Assembly (NCBI GenBank): GCA_002898575.1
Contig: BEHT01000002.1
Coordinates: 1 to 64,000 of the forward strand
DNA from: a bacterium HR17
GTDB taxonomy: Bacteria > Armatimonadota > Fervidibacteria > Fervidibacterales > Fervidibacteraceae
Direction of reading: 5' to 3'
Length of the DNA: 64,000 nt
Within the stretch, counting starts at the first letter, position 1, and each line of letters begins with the position of its first letter. This document shows positions 28,195 through 63,529 of this stretch, one piece after another. Below the pieces are notes generated by a model, which was given only the letters and a program-made list of their open reading frames with translations, was not told where the DNA came from and made no database searches. Position numbers and translations under genes: made by a program.

Positions 28195-30291
28195 ATGCGA
28201 CGCTGGCTGAACAAAGGACGCCGCTGGTTTTGGGTGCCGATCGCTGCCGGGTTGATTGCAGGCGGGTGGTGGCTGCGGCGCGTTCAAGCCGCCAAAGCCA
28301 ATCAGCCTTTCATCCAAACCGCTAAGGTGGAACGCACAACGGTCACCCTCACCGTTTCAGCCCAAGGCACGATCCAGCCTTACGAAATCGTGGAAGTCAA
28401 ATCCAAAGCCGCCGGCAAAGTCATTCAAATGGCGGTGGAAGTCGGCGATCGCGTCAAGAAGGGGCAACTGATTTGCCGCATTGACCCGTCCGATGTCCAA
28501 ACCGTCGTCAATCAAGCCCAAGCCGATTTGGACTCGGCGTTAGCCCGCGTCCAGCAAGCGATGATCAACTGGCAGATGCAACAGCGGTTGACGCCGGCAC
28601 AACTGGACGAAGCCCGTCAAGCACTGGAAGCAGCGCGGGCGCGGTTGCGGCAAGCCGAAAGTGCGTTAGCGGCGCAGGAGAAGCAGGCTCATGCCAGTTT
28701 GCGCCAAGCCGAGCAAGCCGTCGCCGCCGCAAAAGCCCGCTACGAGCAAGCCAAAAAGCAGGCAGACATCCAACCGACGCTGACCCAAACCGCCATTCAA
28801 CAGGCTGAAGCAGCGTATAGGAGTGCTTTGGAGAGCCTGCGACAGTTGAAGGAAGCGACCATCCCACAGCAACGCGCCCAAGCCCAAGCCGCCGTCCAGC
28901 AAGCCGAAGCGGCGTATAGGAGCGCTTTGGAGAGCCTGCGACAGTTGAAGGAAGCGACCATCCCACAGCAACGCGCCCAAGCCCAAGCCCAATACAACGA
29001 CGCCAAAGCCCAACTGGACAACGCCGAAAAAAACCTGCAACGGCAGCGGGAGTTGTTTGAGAAAGGCTTTGTCGCTAAGAGCCAACTGGACGCCGCTGAA
29101 GCCCAATTCGCCGCCGCCAAAGCCCAATTTGACACCGCTACCGAAAAGTTGCGCACCGTTGAGCAAGAGTTGTCTGCTGCTTTGCAGATGGCAGAAGCAC
29201 GGGTCGCCGACGCTAAAGCCCAACTGGACAGTGCCCGTGAACGGCTGCGGACTTTGGACGCCGAACACCAAGCCGCATTGCGCGATGCCGAAGCCCGCGT
29301 CGCTCAAGCCACTGCCCAACTGGAAGCCGCAAAAGCCAACGCCGTTCAGGATGAACTGCGTCGACAGGAAGTTGCTGCCGCTGAAGCGGCGCTGCGGCAA
29401 GCCGAAGCCCAACTGGAAGCGACAAAGGCTGAACTGCTGACCGTTGAACAGCGCCGCGCCGATGTGGACGCCGCCCGCGCCGCATTGGCGCAAGCGGAAG
29501 CGTCCTACCGCCAAGCATTGGTCAACACCCAGCAAGTCAAACTGCGCCAAGAGGATGTCAGGCAAGCCAAAGCGCAAGTCCAGCGCGCCTTAGCCCAACT
29601 GCGCAATGCCCGCATCCAGTTAGCGGACACGGTGATCACTGCGCCCCGTGACGGCGTCATCGTAGAAAAACTCGTGCAGGAAGGAACGGTCATCAGTTCC
29701 AGCACTTCCGCCTTCGCCCAAGGGACGACCATTGTCCGCTTAGCGGATATGCGCCGCATCTATGTGGACGCCGAGGTCGCTGAAGCCGATATCGCATCGG
29801 TGTGGGTCGGGCAACATGTGGATGTCTCGGTGGACGCTTTCCCTGGCGAAATTTTTGAGGGCAAAGTCATCCGCATCGACCCGCGCACGACGATTGAGCA
29901 GAATGTCGTCTATGTCCATGTGCTCGTGGAATTGACCGAAGTGGACGAACGACTCAAGCCGGGCATGTCCGCCACCTGCGACTTCCTCGTAGACCGTAAG
30001 GAGAATGTCCTTGCGGTCCCCAACGAAGCCATCAAGGAAGACGAAGAGGGTAAAACCTATGTGGAAGTGCTCGTCCACGCTAACCCCGAACCGCAAATGG
30101 AGCGGCGCTATGTGGAAGTCGGATTGCAAGGCACGGCGTTCACCGAAATCAAAAAGGGCTTGAAAGCGGGCGATGTCGTCGTCACGGCATTCGTTCAACC
30201 CCAAGCCCTCACACAACAACCGCCACAAGGTGGCGGCAGAGGGAGCTTCAGCGGACCGATGGGAGGCATGCGCGGCTTGATGCGCCGTTAG
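28195..30291 (+). CDS. HlyD/MacA-type periplasmic adaptor with a very long helical hairpin
   Basis: 698 residues from the ATG at 28195 (GGGAGG upstream). One transmembrane segment near residues 11-27 is followed by half of a lipoyl/barrel domain ([27 protein letters not shown], given in part). An Ala/Gln/Glu-rich coiled-coil hairpin spans about 95-480, then the other half ([16 protein letters not shown]) and the beta-barrel and membrane-proximal domains ([11 protein letters not shown]). Usual MacA adaptors are 370-480 residues, so the hairpin is strongly enlarged, partly by a 33-residue tandem duplication. It links the inner-membrane ABC transporter to TolC. A Gly-rich end closes the protein. 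Confidence 0.92.
28798..28995 (+). repeat. 99-bp tandem duplication within the adaptor gene
   Basis: Two adjacent 99-base units (28798-28896 and 28897-28995) encode residues 202-267. The stretch [20 protein letters not shown] and the following AQAQA occur in both. From TATAGG onward about 75 bases match with a single difference (AGT/AGC), which indicates a recent in-frame duplication lengthening the coiled coil by 33 residues. Confidence 0.85.
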
Positions 30292-37814: not shown

Positions 37815-37860
37815 ACGCCTTCCCCTACAAATGCTGCGCAAGTTGAATGATGAGGATTAG

Positions 37861-37937
37861 TCGGAGGACTGCTCTCCTGAGCAGCCGAAAAAATTGGTGC
37901 GAAAAATCGGCGCGTCAGGCGACGCACCCTACGAGGA
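37861..37937. repeat. 77-bp palindromic (BIME-like) element, copy A
   Basis: Two hairpins inside terminal inverted ends: CTGCTC-TCCT-GAGCAG (37869-37884) and GCGTC-AGGC-GACGC (37912-37925), flanked by TCGGAGG on the left and CCTACGAGG on the right. It has the same length and layout as the copy at 63453-63529, with compensated stem changes (CTGCTC/GAGCAG here, GGCGGCTC/GAGCCGCC there). It lies between the phosphodiesterase and the hydrolase pseudogene. Confidence 0.75.
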
Positions 37938-38061
37938 ACTGCAGAAAGGAAAATTCAACAAAGCCCTCTCATTGCATTCTGCGGGATTTGAACGGCAAAA
38001 TTCTCACAAAGGTTCAAAGGTTAGCGACTTACTCGCAACAGCCAATTGGGGTAATGTGGCA

Positions 38062-39464
38062 ATGAGGTTACGGGTTAGCGCATCGGTGATAGCGTTGTTG
38101 ACAATTTTGCTCCCAGCAACAGTAACAGCCGAACAGGAAACGGTGCGTTGGAATGACTGGCAATTGACTTTTGATAGCCAAACGGGAGATTGGCTCAGTT
38201 TGAGATGGCGGGGACAAATCATCGCCAGAGAGCCTCAATCGGGCAACTTGGCATCGGTGGATATTTCTGTCGGCGAAAGGGAAGGGCAACGGCGATGGCT
38301 CATTGAAGGTCGCTTGTCAACCTCTCGCCTCACCTATTGGCACTTTGACCCGAAAACCGCCACGCTAACTTTGACCCGAGAGGTTTCTGTTGACAAAGGA
38401 CGATGGCAGTTTCAGGAACTTATCCAGTTCGGCGCTTTTGACAACCCCAACCGCATTACCCGCAATTTGCGTTTGACTTGGACGGGCAATTTTGAAATGC
38501 GACCATCGGGTCGGTGAACGAGCGCTGAATGGGGCGTCGGGCAATTGTTGGTTCAGCAAGATGATACCGAACATTGCTTTTTGTCAACGATGCTCGCCGT
38601 GACCCCGCTGCAACTCATCTGTGGTCAACGGACGACACCGTCTTCGTTGCCTATGAATTTGTAGCGATGGGTTGGGCTGAGCCAAACGAGCCTCAAACTG
38701 TCGGGATAGCATTTCTTGAGGTCGTGCCGACAAATTTGCCGACAGCCCTCAGAACGGCTTTTTGGCGCTTTTATGACGATGTGGGCATTAAAGTTCCTCC
38801 TGACCGACCCGATTGGGTTCACAAGGTTGCTCTTTACTCCTTTGATGCTGGCGGGACAATCGGAAGCGATTTCAGAGATTTAGATGGTCTGGGCACACCC
38901 GAGGAGTATAAGGCTCTGATTTCGGAAGCCCATCGGTTGGGATTGAAAGTTTGGTAAGACATCGTCCCTCACGGCGGAAGCCCCGAGCACGGCAAAGTGA
39001 AAGGCAACAAGCCTTGGTGGTTGGTGCTTGATGAAGATGGCAACGCCCTCAACTATTGGTGTTTTGACTTCCGCGAACCAGAATGGCAGCGCTACATCGG
39101 AGAAGTTGCCGAGTATTATGTCCGAACTTTTGGCATTGACGGTTTCAGGGTTGACGCTGTCGGCGGAAGTCGCACTATGAATTGGCGACGAGAAGGTTTC
39201 CCTCCTGCAGCGAAAGTTCCATCTAATGTCCCAGCCGATTGGTGGCAAAGCGAATTGACAAAAGTTGGTGGTCAAGTCCCACCTTTGCCTTACGAACGGG
39301 GCAGTTTGACCTTGAGGGAAGGCGGGTTGCAAAGGCTTCAAGTCATCCGACAAGCGACCAGAAAGCACAACCCTGATAGAGCGATTTTAGGCGAAGTGGG
39401 CATCGTCCCTTCCATGCAAGAAGCCGAGTACAAGTTGAAGTTGTGCGGTAGAGGGGAAGCATGA
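38062..39464 (+). pseudogene. Glycoside hydrolase (GH13-like catalytic core), decayed
   Basis: Opens with a signal peptide at 38062 (MRLRVSASVIALLTILLPA) and a beta-sandwich domain with WNDWQLTFDSQTGDWLSLRW. Damage: an in-frame TGA at 38515, a frameshift before 38574, an in-frame TAA at 38955 in the middle of the conserved LGLKVW-DIVPHGG, and a missing C-terminal region. The catalytic core is still readable: FGIDGFRVDAVGG with the nucleophile Asp and ILGEVG with the acid/base Glu. It would have been a secreted alpha-glucan or related glycosidase. Its end overlaps the next start. Confidence 0.85.
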
Positions 39465-40694
39465 AGGTGACAGCGACGGATTACTTGGGACGAAGGTGGC
39501 GGTGTGCAGCGTGTGGGCAGGCGCGTAGCGTCCCGACCCGTTGGGTGGAAGTGGCTGAGGGCGTGCTGGCGCATTTGCCTGACACCATCCCAGCGGACGC
39601 GACACCGCTGGTCGTCGCCGACGAAATCGCTTGGGAAGTGGCGGTGCGAACGGTGGCGCATTTGTTGCAATCTGCCTGTCCCTCAGTGCGCACCGTCGTT
39701 TTGCCAATCGCTTTGCATGCGACGGACAAAACGGCGGAGTTTTTGATGGAACGCTTGTCAACGGACATCACAACAGCGTTGGCGGTCGGGAGCGGTGCGG
39801 TTAACGATGTCGTCAAGTGGGGCGCGACCCAGCGGGCAGTGCCTTACATCACTGTCCCGACGGCTGCCAGCGTCAACGGCTACACCTCGCCTATCGCAGC
39901 GTTAACGGTGGATGGCGTCAAGGGGACACTGCCGTGTCATCCGCCTATCGGGGTGCTGGCCGAACCGCGCACCGTGGCGTCTGCGCCTTTAGCGATGACA
40001 GCAGCAGGTTATGCCGATTTGGATTGGCAAGTGGCTCATCGGTTGTGGGATGAACCTTATTGCCCTTTGCCCCGCCGTTTGATCGCTTTCGCCGATGCGT
40101 GGTCGTTGGACCACTTGCGAAAGTTGGCTGCCAGCGGACAAAAAGCGGTCGCTGAACTGCTGTTGGCGCTCATCGCTGCGGGCATCGGGATGACCATCGC
40201 CGGGTCATCCGCTCCCTCGTCGGGGGGTGAACATCTCATCTCGCATTGGCTGGACATTCAAGCCGACCGTCGCGGGCGCTCGCCTGCCCTGCGTTGGGCT
40301 GCAGGTTGGCGTCGGAACGCTTGCGGCGTTGGCGCTCTACGAACTTTGGCTGGAGACTGAACTCGGAGGGCGGCTCTCCTGAGCCGCCATAGATCATCCA
40401 CTTTACGAACTTTGGCTGGAGACTGAACCGAGGGAGTGGCGGACAGATCCGGAAGCAGTGCGCCCGCCGCCAGACCGAGCCGCCGAATTTGCGGAACGCT
40501 ACGGGCAAAGAGCAGAAGCGGTCGGGGCAGCGACCCATCCACATCACATCGGCGTCTCGCGGGGCGAGATGAAGATAGCGATTTTGCATGCCCGCGAAAT
40601 TCGGCGGCGCTGGACGATCTTGGACGCTGCCTCTCTCGTCGGCGTTTCGCCCGACCGTTTGGACGAAGTGATGCAGCGGTGCAGCTGGCGATGA
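39461..40694 (+). pseudogene. Glycerol-1-phosphate dehydrogenase-like gene (AraM/EgsA family), frameshifted and interrupted
   Basis: The first 280 codons are intact: WRCAACGQARSVPTRWVEV, nucleotide-binding AVGSGAVNDVVKWGA, PTAASVNGYTSPIA, and metal-site GEHLISHWLD. A one-base shift near 40292-40310 moves the frame, after which GLQVGVGTLAALALYELWLETE is readable. A 66-bp insertion (palindromic element plus repeated 25 bp) adds a TGA. The tail then continues in frame with FAERYG and HAREIRRRWTILDAASLVGV to 40694. Relatives reduce dihydroxyacetone phosphate to sn-glycerol-1-phosphate. Inactive unless the errors are sequencing artefacts. Confidence 0.8.
40363..40403. repeat. Half palindromic element (copy B) inserted between 25-bp direct repeats
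   Basis: TCGGAGG followed by the hairpin GGCGGCTC-TCCT-GAGCCGCC (40369-40388) is the left half of the 77-bp element. It is flanked by identical 25-base direct repeats at 40338-40362 and 40404-40428 that begin TACGAACTTTGG. The repeats look like a target duplication made on insertion into the dehydrogenase gene. Confidence 0.8.
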
Positions 40695-63129: not shown

Positions 63130-63450
63130 CTACGGTGTCCATCGGCTGAACACCAAATCGCGGTCGCGCACCTTGAAATGACACCCGACACACTGATTAG
63201 TTGGGTCGGTGACCAGCGGTTTGCCTGTTGCGTCCCACGCCTGCCAACCCCAGCCGCCCGTCTTGGCATAGCGCTTGCTGTCTTTGACCATGACAGCGAC
63301 GAACTTCTTGTCACCCGCGACACACATACCGTTTTCGTCTTTCGCCTCATAGAACGCTGCGGCGATGACGCTGCCGTCGGGCAACTTTTTCGCGCCCTGC
63401 TGGTAAGCAGCGGCAGCAATTTTGTTACGCTGTGTTGGAAAAGGGGTTTT
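63130..63450 (-). pseudogene. Cytochrome P460-like protein, 5'-truncated
   Basis: The readable part ends TNQCVGCHFKVRDRDLVFSRWTP, with a c-type heme CxxCH and the P460-family ending DRDxVFSR. Upstream are KKLPDGSVIAAAFYEAK and GGWGWQAWDATGKPLVTDP. No start codon, ribosome site or signal peptide remains; the frame runs into the palindromic element at 63453. Probably the 3' remnant of a periplasmic P460-type cytochrome gene cut by the element. Confidence 0.65.
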
Positions 63451-63452
63451 TG

Positions 63453-63529
63453 TCGGAGGGCGGCTCTCCTGAGCCGCCGAACAATGACATGAAACCGTAA
63501 GGGCGCGTCAGGAGACGCCCCCTCCGAGG
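63453..63529. repeat. 77-bp palindromic (BIME-like) element, copy C
   Basis: TCGGAGGG starts the element and CCTCCGAGG ends it. Inside are GGCGGCTC-TCCT-GAGCCGCC (63459-63478) and GCGTC-AGGA-GACGC (63505-63518). The right half is an inverted, diverged version of the left half, so the whole element is a long imperfect palindrome. Same length as copy A at 37861-37937. It separates two gene remnants. Confidence 0.8.

Follow-up and report, generated by a model that had tools for sequence, protein, structure and literature searches.

The lone hairpin at positions 40363-40388 of the window, by which we mean the whole 64,000-nucleotide stretch of bacterium HR17 DNA analysed here, sits in a short insertion that probably works like off-target integration of a CRISPR spacer. 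A 36-nt insert carrying the hairpin lies between two copies of a target of about 30 bp, structures of the same form recur in this genome at a near-constant period with different targets and inserts, and their ruler is that of the native CRISPR array, whose terminal spacer itself contains the hairpin. We liken the working of the structure to off-target spacer integration, without assigning it to that class, because the targets are unlike the CRISPR repeat, the duplication lengths are scattered, the assembly holds no intact cas1, the control sample is small and 413 kb of the genome are empty of further cases.

The exact 25-mer TACGAACTTTGGCTGGAGACTGAAC is present at 40338-40362 and again at 40404-40428 (25/25 identical). 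The 41 nt that separate the two copies consist of the 26-nt half-element TCGGAGGGCGGCTCTCCTGAGCCGCC (40363-40388) and another 15 nt, and the half-element lies between two identical 25-mers, as a first-pass annotation of this DNA had described. Its figure of 25 bp for the duplication holds for the exact core; the duplication is better read as about 30 bp, given that the repeat pair extends to the left with 27/28 identical positions and with 28/30 over 30 bp (40333-40362 / 40399-40428), both mismatches being transitions. On this reading the insert measures 36 nt and the period is 66. The site and the gene around it comprise the following features:

39461..40360, + strand: 5' part of a decayed glycerol-1-phosphate dehydrogenase-like gene (ORF, Pfam, NCBIfam, homologues).
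40333..40362, + strand: A1, first copy of the duplicated target, exact over 40338-40362 (repeat comparison).
40363..40388, + strand: single left-type hairpin (half-element) with the head TCGGAGG (copy searches, folding).
40363..40398, + strand: insert X, 36 nt long; with a duplication of 25 bp it would extend to 40403 (41 nt).
40399..40428, + strand: A2, second copy of the duplicated target, exact over 40404-40428 (repeat comparison).
40458..40694, + strand: C-terminal remnant of the same dehydrogenase gene, which aligns with the C-terminus of homologues and has no Pfam match of its own.

The insert folds as a hairpin (-11.2 kcal/mol, z -3.86, 0 of 200 shuffles equally good), and the flanking-repeat score of 25.5 at this site was reached by 7 of 20000 random positions outside element clusters. 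A search for a donor of the insert including its 15-nt tail (GAGCCGCC plus tail) gave no other genomic match at up to 3 mismatches, and an Rfam search of the window returned no match.

The proposal of an insertion with a long flanking duplication is supported by four aligned glycerol-1-phosphate dehydrogenase-type homologues, which run through the site and lack a counterpart of the insert. The accompanying claim that removal of the insertion restores an uninterrupted frame is true locally: deletion of 66 bp opens plus-strand frames of 144 and 91 codons over the site, and the minus-strand frames are open with or without the insert. The restoration remains local because the gene is broken elsewhere too. 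The product of 39461..40360 matches Pfam Fe-ADH_2 (3e-27) and NCBIfam NF002022 (1.5e-38, under that model's curated cut-off), but its frame differs from the frame at the insertion site, which indicates a frameshift between about 40260 and 40310. Between the site and the C-terminal block, a count by eye gives about 50 residues fewer than in homologue L032. The upstream frameshift and the shortened downstream part thus place the window insertion in a decayed gene. An uninterrupted homologue in a sister genome, proposed as a check, was not seen among 41 genomes that include two of the same genus and one of the same family; the dehydrogenase was matched in 8 of the 41 (own genome included), in neither of the same-genus genomes and not in the same-family one. 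A search of the wider contig collection, which may omit near relatives, with the dehydrogenase gene yielded no relative.

The half-element is part of an abundant family. Three copies of the 23-mer GAGGGCGGCTCTCCTGAGCCGCC occur in the window at up to 3 mismatches (expected 0.00), and the left-type 24-mer GGAGGGCGGCTCTCCTGAGCCGCC has 294 matches at up to 2 mismatches in the 3.15-Mb draft genome, whereas the reversed control gave none. Hairpins of the left (GGAGGGCGGCTCTCCTGAGCCGCC) and right type (GGAGGGCGCGTCTCCTGACGCGCC) are arranged as inverted pairs. In our sample, which covers slightly over 61% of the genome, 16 of the 34 isolated inverted pairs carry both outer ends (TGCTGTGTTGAA / TTCAACAAAGCA; accepted at an alignment score of at least 8 of 12). 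Fifteen of these are 121-140 bp long (about 134) and one measures 200 bp, and flanking duplications of 7-10 bp (at most one mismatch) are present at 10 of the 16. The full inverted-pair unit with its outer inverted repeats is a MITE. The window harbors two such copies:

37833..37964, + strand: diverged MITE-form copy with compensated stem changes; left hairpin at 37861-37886, right hairpin ending at about 37934, ends set by eye.
63429..63527, + strand: second full copy with left end, left hairpin 63453-63478 and right hairpin to 63527; right MITE end not recognised.

Hairpin pairs are also amplified as tandem arrays of variable period, and changes in the stems are often compensated (of 71 distinct right-type sequences, 45 have GC and 11 have AT at the pair 10-19). 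At up to 2 mismatches the element was found in 2 of the 41 genomes, its own included. The same-order relative G004 contains two left-right hairpin pairs with changed stems (L040, L041), and the element family therefore seems older than the genus. The exact 26-mer half-element had no match in the wider contig collection or in IMG/VR, both of which may omit near relatives.

The window site had been regarded as a snapshot of how these elements integrate. Their usual form is the inverted pair, often within a MITE with 7-10-bp duplications, or the array, and the reading as the element's own integration is probably wrong, since a period of about 66 bp at seven places with unrelated inserts points to a machinery that is not specific to the element. 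Like other MITEs, the full copies combine outer inverted repeats with short duplications; the half-element at 40363 is without such ends. It is a lone left hairpin, and the outer terminal inverted repeats are absent from 40363-40403. Ordinary MITE transposition with subsequent loss of the ends, the flanking repeat being due to chance or to a secondary tandem duplication, would agree with the membership of the hairpin in an abundant MITE and with some single hairpins without repeats that look like decayed MITEs. We nevertheless hold this scenario to be very unlikely, as no MITE end remains anywhere in 40333-40428, the duplications of the MITEs (10/16) are far from 30 bp, and long flanking repeats recur at single hairpins far above chance.

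This recurrence emerged from a comparison of all single hairpins, in line with the suggestion that other half-elements be checked for long flanking repeats. With up to 4 errors allowed, the main sample and the window together contain 13 clusters of a single hairpin, to which a tandem pair of two identical single hairpins is added; singles with 5 errors, at least seven, were left out, and L123:8051, counted here as a single, lies near a degenerate partner. Flanking direct repeats are present at 6 of these 14 loci, namely the window, C1:75467, C9:43365, C18:9532, C11:4476 and, weakly, C7:51526 (score 12, p=0.006), and absent at the other 8; three more single hairpins in the last part of the sample have none. 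The five clear cases score 16.5-27.5 compared with at most 11.5 for pairs and arrays, a contig-edge artefact (L117) aside; for the last part of the sample, scores are given for clusters of one or two hairpins only. Flanks that differ at other copies had been named as evidence against the proposed insertion. Their sequence does differ at every copy, but a rule of length is common to the copies. The inserts of the window, C9 and C18 start precisely with the hairpin head TCGG and match genomic element copies over 28-30 identical nt. From these exact starts we would guess that the foot of the hairpin may be a cut site. C11 (L167 4476-4626) comprises a pair of 66-bp units whose right-type hairpin inserts are identical, and the flank is present a third time; an ectopic insertion may here have been duplicated later in tandem.

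High copy number, a stem-loop with conserved head, inverted pairs, tandem mosaics and compensated stems liken the hairpins to REP, REPIN and BIME sequences as portrayed in published accounts (PMC8266576, PMC2817692, PMC3116915, PMC3733652). They differ from REPs and REPINs with a REP-associated tyrosine transposase (RAYT) in that they are embedded in a MITE bounded by inverted repeats, and some single hairpins here have long duplications. The only Y1 transposase found is a RAYT (NF047646, 86.2 bits with a cut-off of 80), and its gene (L039; G000:C41:29343-29672) lies among a second family of GTAG-headed palindromes (GGTAGCGTCGGGG...CCCCGACGG). The presence of this gene and the insert starts at TCGG in the window, C9 and C18 would fit a REP mobilised by the RAYT with an unusually long duplication. 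This is quite unlikely, since the RAYT adjoins the other palindrome family and not the present one (by inspection), and seven cases of the same period have no hairpin insert. The related IS200/IS605 transposases, moreover, are not known to make a target duplication.

The length rule extends beyond the hairpin. Thirteen candidate structures of the form A-X-A, an insert X between two copies of a target A, were found in the sampled DNA, and while A and X differ among them, the period is nearly constant (65-70). The cargo is the hairpin in six of them and other DNA in seven. A first scan, which was blind to the hairpin (at least 22/28 matches, offsets 35 to 140, arrays and CRISPR excluded), detected 32 repeat-pair regions in 1,513,049 bases, with one at an offset of 65, six at 66 and one at 69, and the other 24 at 42-132, including four at 93 and three at 126. 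A further 413,091 bases contained eight regions and none at 65-69, where about two new cases were expected. The second scan, a gapped alignment over 194 loci of the genome (G000), returned 35 pairs at offsets 40-110, of which 25 score at least 20. The target is free of element sequence in seven of the 25 (window, C9, C55, C1:48986, C2:115778, C33 and C1:75467; offsets 65, 65, 66, 66, 66, 68 and 70), and MITE or hairpin sequence in A is combined with other DNA in X at C2:66574, C30 and C39 (offsets 66, 67 and 68). The remaining 15 comprise ten element arrays (one at 68), two family-B palindromes and three coding or tRNA repeats. C18, C11 and C7 come from other scans and are absent from this one because of filters, a tandem copy and a low score. 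The 25 pairs were assigned to families by eye, and the nine cases for length comparison were likewise chosen by eye.

In these nine cases, with the window entered as 30+36 and C2:115778, C18, C11 and C7 left out, A measures 28-33 and X 33-39 (means 31.0 and 35.7). Duplications outside this range are found at C2:115778 (20-23), C11 (23-24), C18 (38-39) and C7 (17-20), and the inserts of these four less clear cases span 28 to 50 nt, depending on the placement of the ends. The two copies of A have diverged in most cases. This divergence, together with the single period shared by sites of differing sequence, makes an assembly artefact extremely unlikely, even though the draft consists of 75 contigs and the frameshift and broken cas1 could reflect errors as well as decay.

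An internal reference is provided by C2:66574, where the insertion lies inside a MITE. This copy (L124 2572-2720) is 200 bp long, compared with 121-140 in the other 15, and it keeps its outer 9-bp duplication GATGGGCAC / GATGGGCGC (8/9). It is about 66 bp longer because a stretch of the left end is present twice with unrelated DNA in between, and the other, uninterrupted MITE copies thus serve as the empty site for this target. The locus shows a 66-bp insertion of the same form as in the window; it does not by itself identify the enzyme. The insert at C1:48986 interrupts a pilin-like frame, the first half of which matches prepilin and DUF1559 models and the second half none, the insert at C33 ends its ORF early, and at C2:115778 the opening bases of the insert supply the stop codon of a gene that we take from its sequence to be radA. 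With respect to empty sites in sister genomes, the matches of C9 and of the radA end in same-genus contigs stop at the edge of the site.

The inserts other than the hairpin are unrelated to each other, and inspection shows no ends that they share. None of the seven has a second copy in the sampled ~61% of the genome, the best matches being at most 16 identical nt and one 26-nt stretch at 88%, and five of the seven, searched against IMG/VR as exact 20-mers or degenerate codons, had no viral match. Insertion sequences of the IS1202 type generate duplications of about 27 bp and are comparable in this respect. The present inserts are unlike them in sharing no termini, their ends being unrelated on inspection, and in being too short for a transposase. 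A further scenario is repair by copying and switching. When a fork breaks or stalls, the growing strand would take a REP hairpin or some other DNA as template for about 36 nt and then re-enter the original site about 30 nt upstream, leaving the flank twice with the filler in between. A filler with a duplicated flank is the expected product of such repair, the duplication lengths vary, and the sequence that follows A2 in the window, CGAGGGAGTGGCG, bears, by eye, some resemblance to the hairpin head. Nevertheless, no fixed sum of flank and filler is predicted, whereas the ten strong pairs fall at 65-70, and the seven non-hairpin inserts are without a donor in the sampled DNA, so that we regard this scenario as unlikely.

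These structures share their period with the native CRISPR array. A single array is present, split over two contigs (C53, L119 1-3402; C37, L180 from 15331), with 97 full-length repeats of 30 nt, one repeat cut by the contig edge and a degenerate last repeat. Its 96 complete spacers are 34-40 nt long (mean 36.2), and its period is 64-70. The A-X-A structures agree with it in insert and period: inserts of 33-39 nt in the nine chosen cases compare with native spacers of 34-40, and periods of 65-70 with 64-70. Beside a native repeat of 30, the duplications measure 28-33 in the nine chosen cases, 17-24 in three and 38-39 in one, a wider spread than a strict ruler would permit. The last spacer of the array consists of a left-type hairpin, 24/24 identical to genomic copies, and bases that flank it; this spacer is bounded by the degenerate repeat (9/29 differ) at a period of 67. 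Spacer number 5 of C37 ends in a 13-nt piece of the hairpin, and matches between native spacers and the sampled DNA are at most 21 nt, the hairpin spacer aside. The trailer end of the array runs into an element array of 103-bp period.

Type I-A cas8a, cas11a, cas7, cas5a and cas2 are located at the end of contig C13, and this cas2 is without stops. Remnants of cas1 and cas2 with stops and frame changes are present on C15 (L172 1175-2131; C15:21175-22131). The assembly holds no intact cas1, the sole copy found being the broken one on C15, and the C13 locus reaches the contig end; a search for Cas3_C found none. The targets are neither leader- nor repeat-like at any of the 13 sites, and their 21 strings resemble the CRISPR repeat no better than random 30-mers. 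The best of them, the window A1 and C2:115778 (15/30, p=0.023 each), are unremarkable for 21 strings. In about 322 kb of the same-family relative G003, a small sample for a control, no pair falls at 64-70.

A near-constant sum of target and insert, whatever the sequence of either part, points to an integrase that acts as a ruler on DNA; the known process of this kind is off-target integration by Cas1-Cas2. In the presumed order of events, a 36-nt fragment with the REP-like hairpin would have been captured from one of the hundreds of genomic copies and joined to both strands of a chromosomal site, with the joints about 30 bp apart. Gap filling would then have duplicated the 30 bp and produced target-insert-target with a 66-bp period, a product with the geometry of repeat-spacer-repeat in the genome's own array, and the putative agent would be Cas1-Cas2. 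Off-target integration would have used hairpin cargo six times and other DNA seven times, and would sometimes have landed in element DNA.

Nivala, Shipman and Church reportedly described off-target (non-canonical) spacer integration by Cas1-Cas2 in 2018, with 'neo-CRISPR' loci as its products (cited in PMC11687729 and PMC9456107). The present structures correspond to these loci in the spacer-sized insert, the approximately repeat-sized target duplication, the location outside the array and the presence of a CRISPR-Cas system in the genome. They deviate in targets that do not resemble the native repeat, in the REP-like hairpin cargo of 6 of the 13, in the element sequence of three targets and in the many cases within one genome. 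No prior report of REP hairpins as off-target spacers is apparent from the titles and abstract openings of the matches listed, which is no proof of absence.

It is possible, and we suggest it tentatively, that the CRISPR adaptation machinery is a route for REP-like hairpins, which would be captured as prespacers and written into both array and genes, with REP or MITE DNA also acting as a landing site. The mechanisms of REP dissemination are poorly understood according to the abstract of PMC8266576, and the spread of single REP hairpins is an open question. If the suggested route is true, Cas1-Cas2 would spread palindromic repeats and give rise to 66-bp insertions that break genes. If the ruler is that of the CRISPR integrase, the dozen off-target spacers would represent a natural record of Cas1-Cas2 going astray, self hairpins could be its cargo, and two repeat systems that are normally studied apart would be connected by a testable link. 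A simple genome screen would search for isolated direct repeats spaced at the same period as the CRISPR array native to the genome.

Direct repeats of other spacing were also observed. The analysed stretches of G003 (L181-L199) contain 23 direct-repeat pairs at an offset of 54, and a near-perfect tandem duplication of 99 bp is located at 28784-28981 of the window, apparently within a repetitive coding region.
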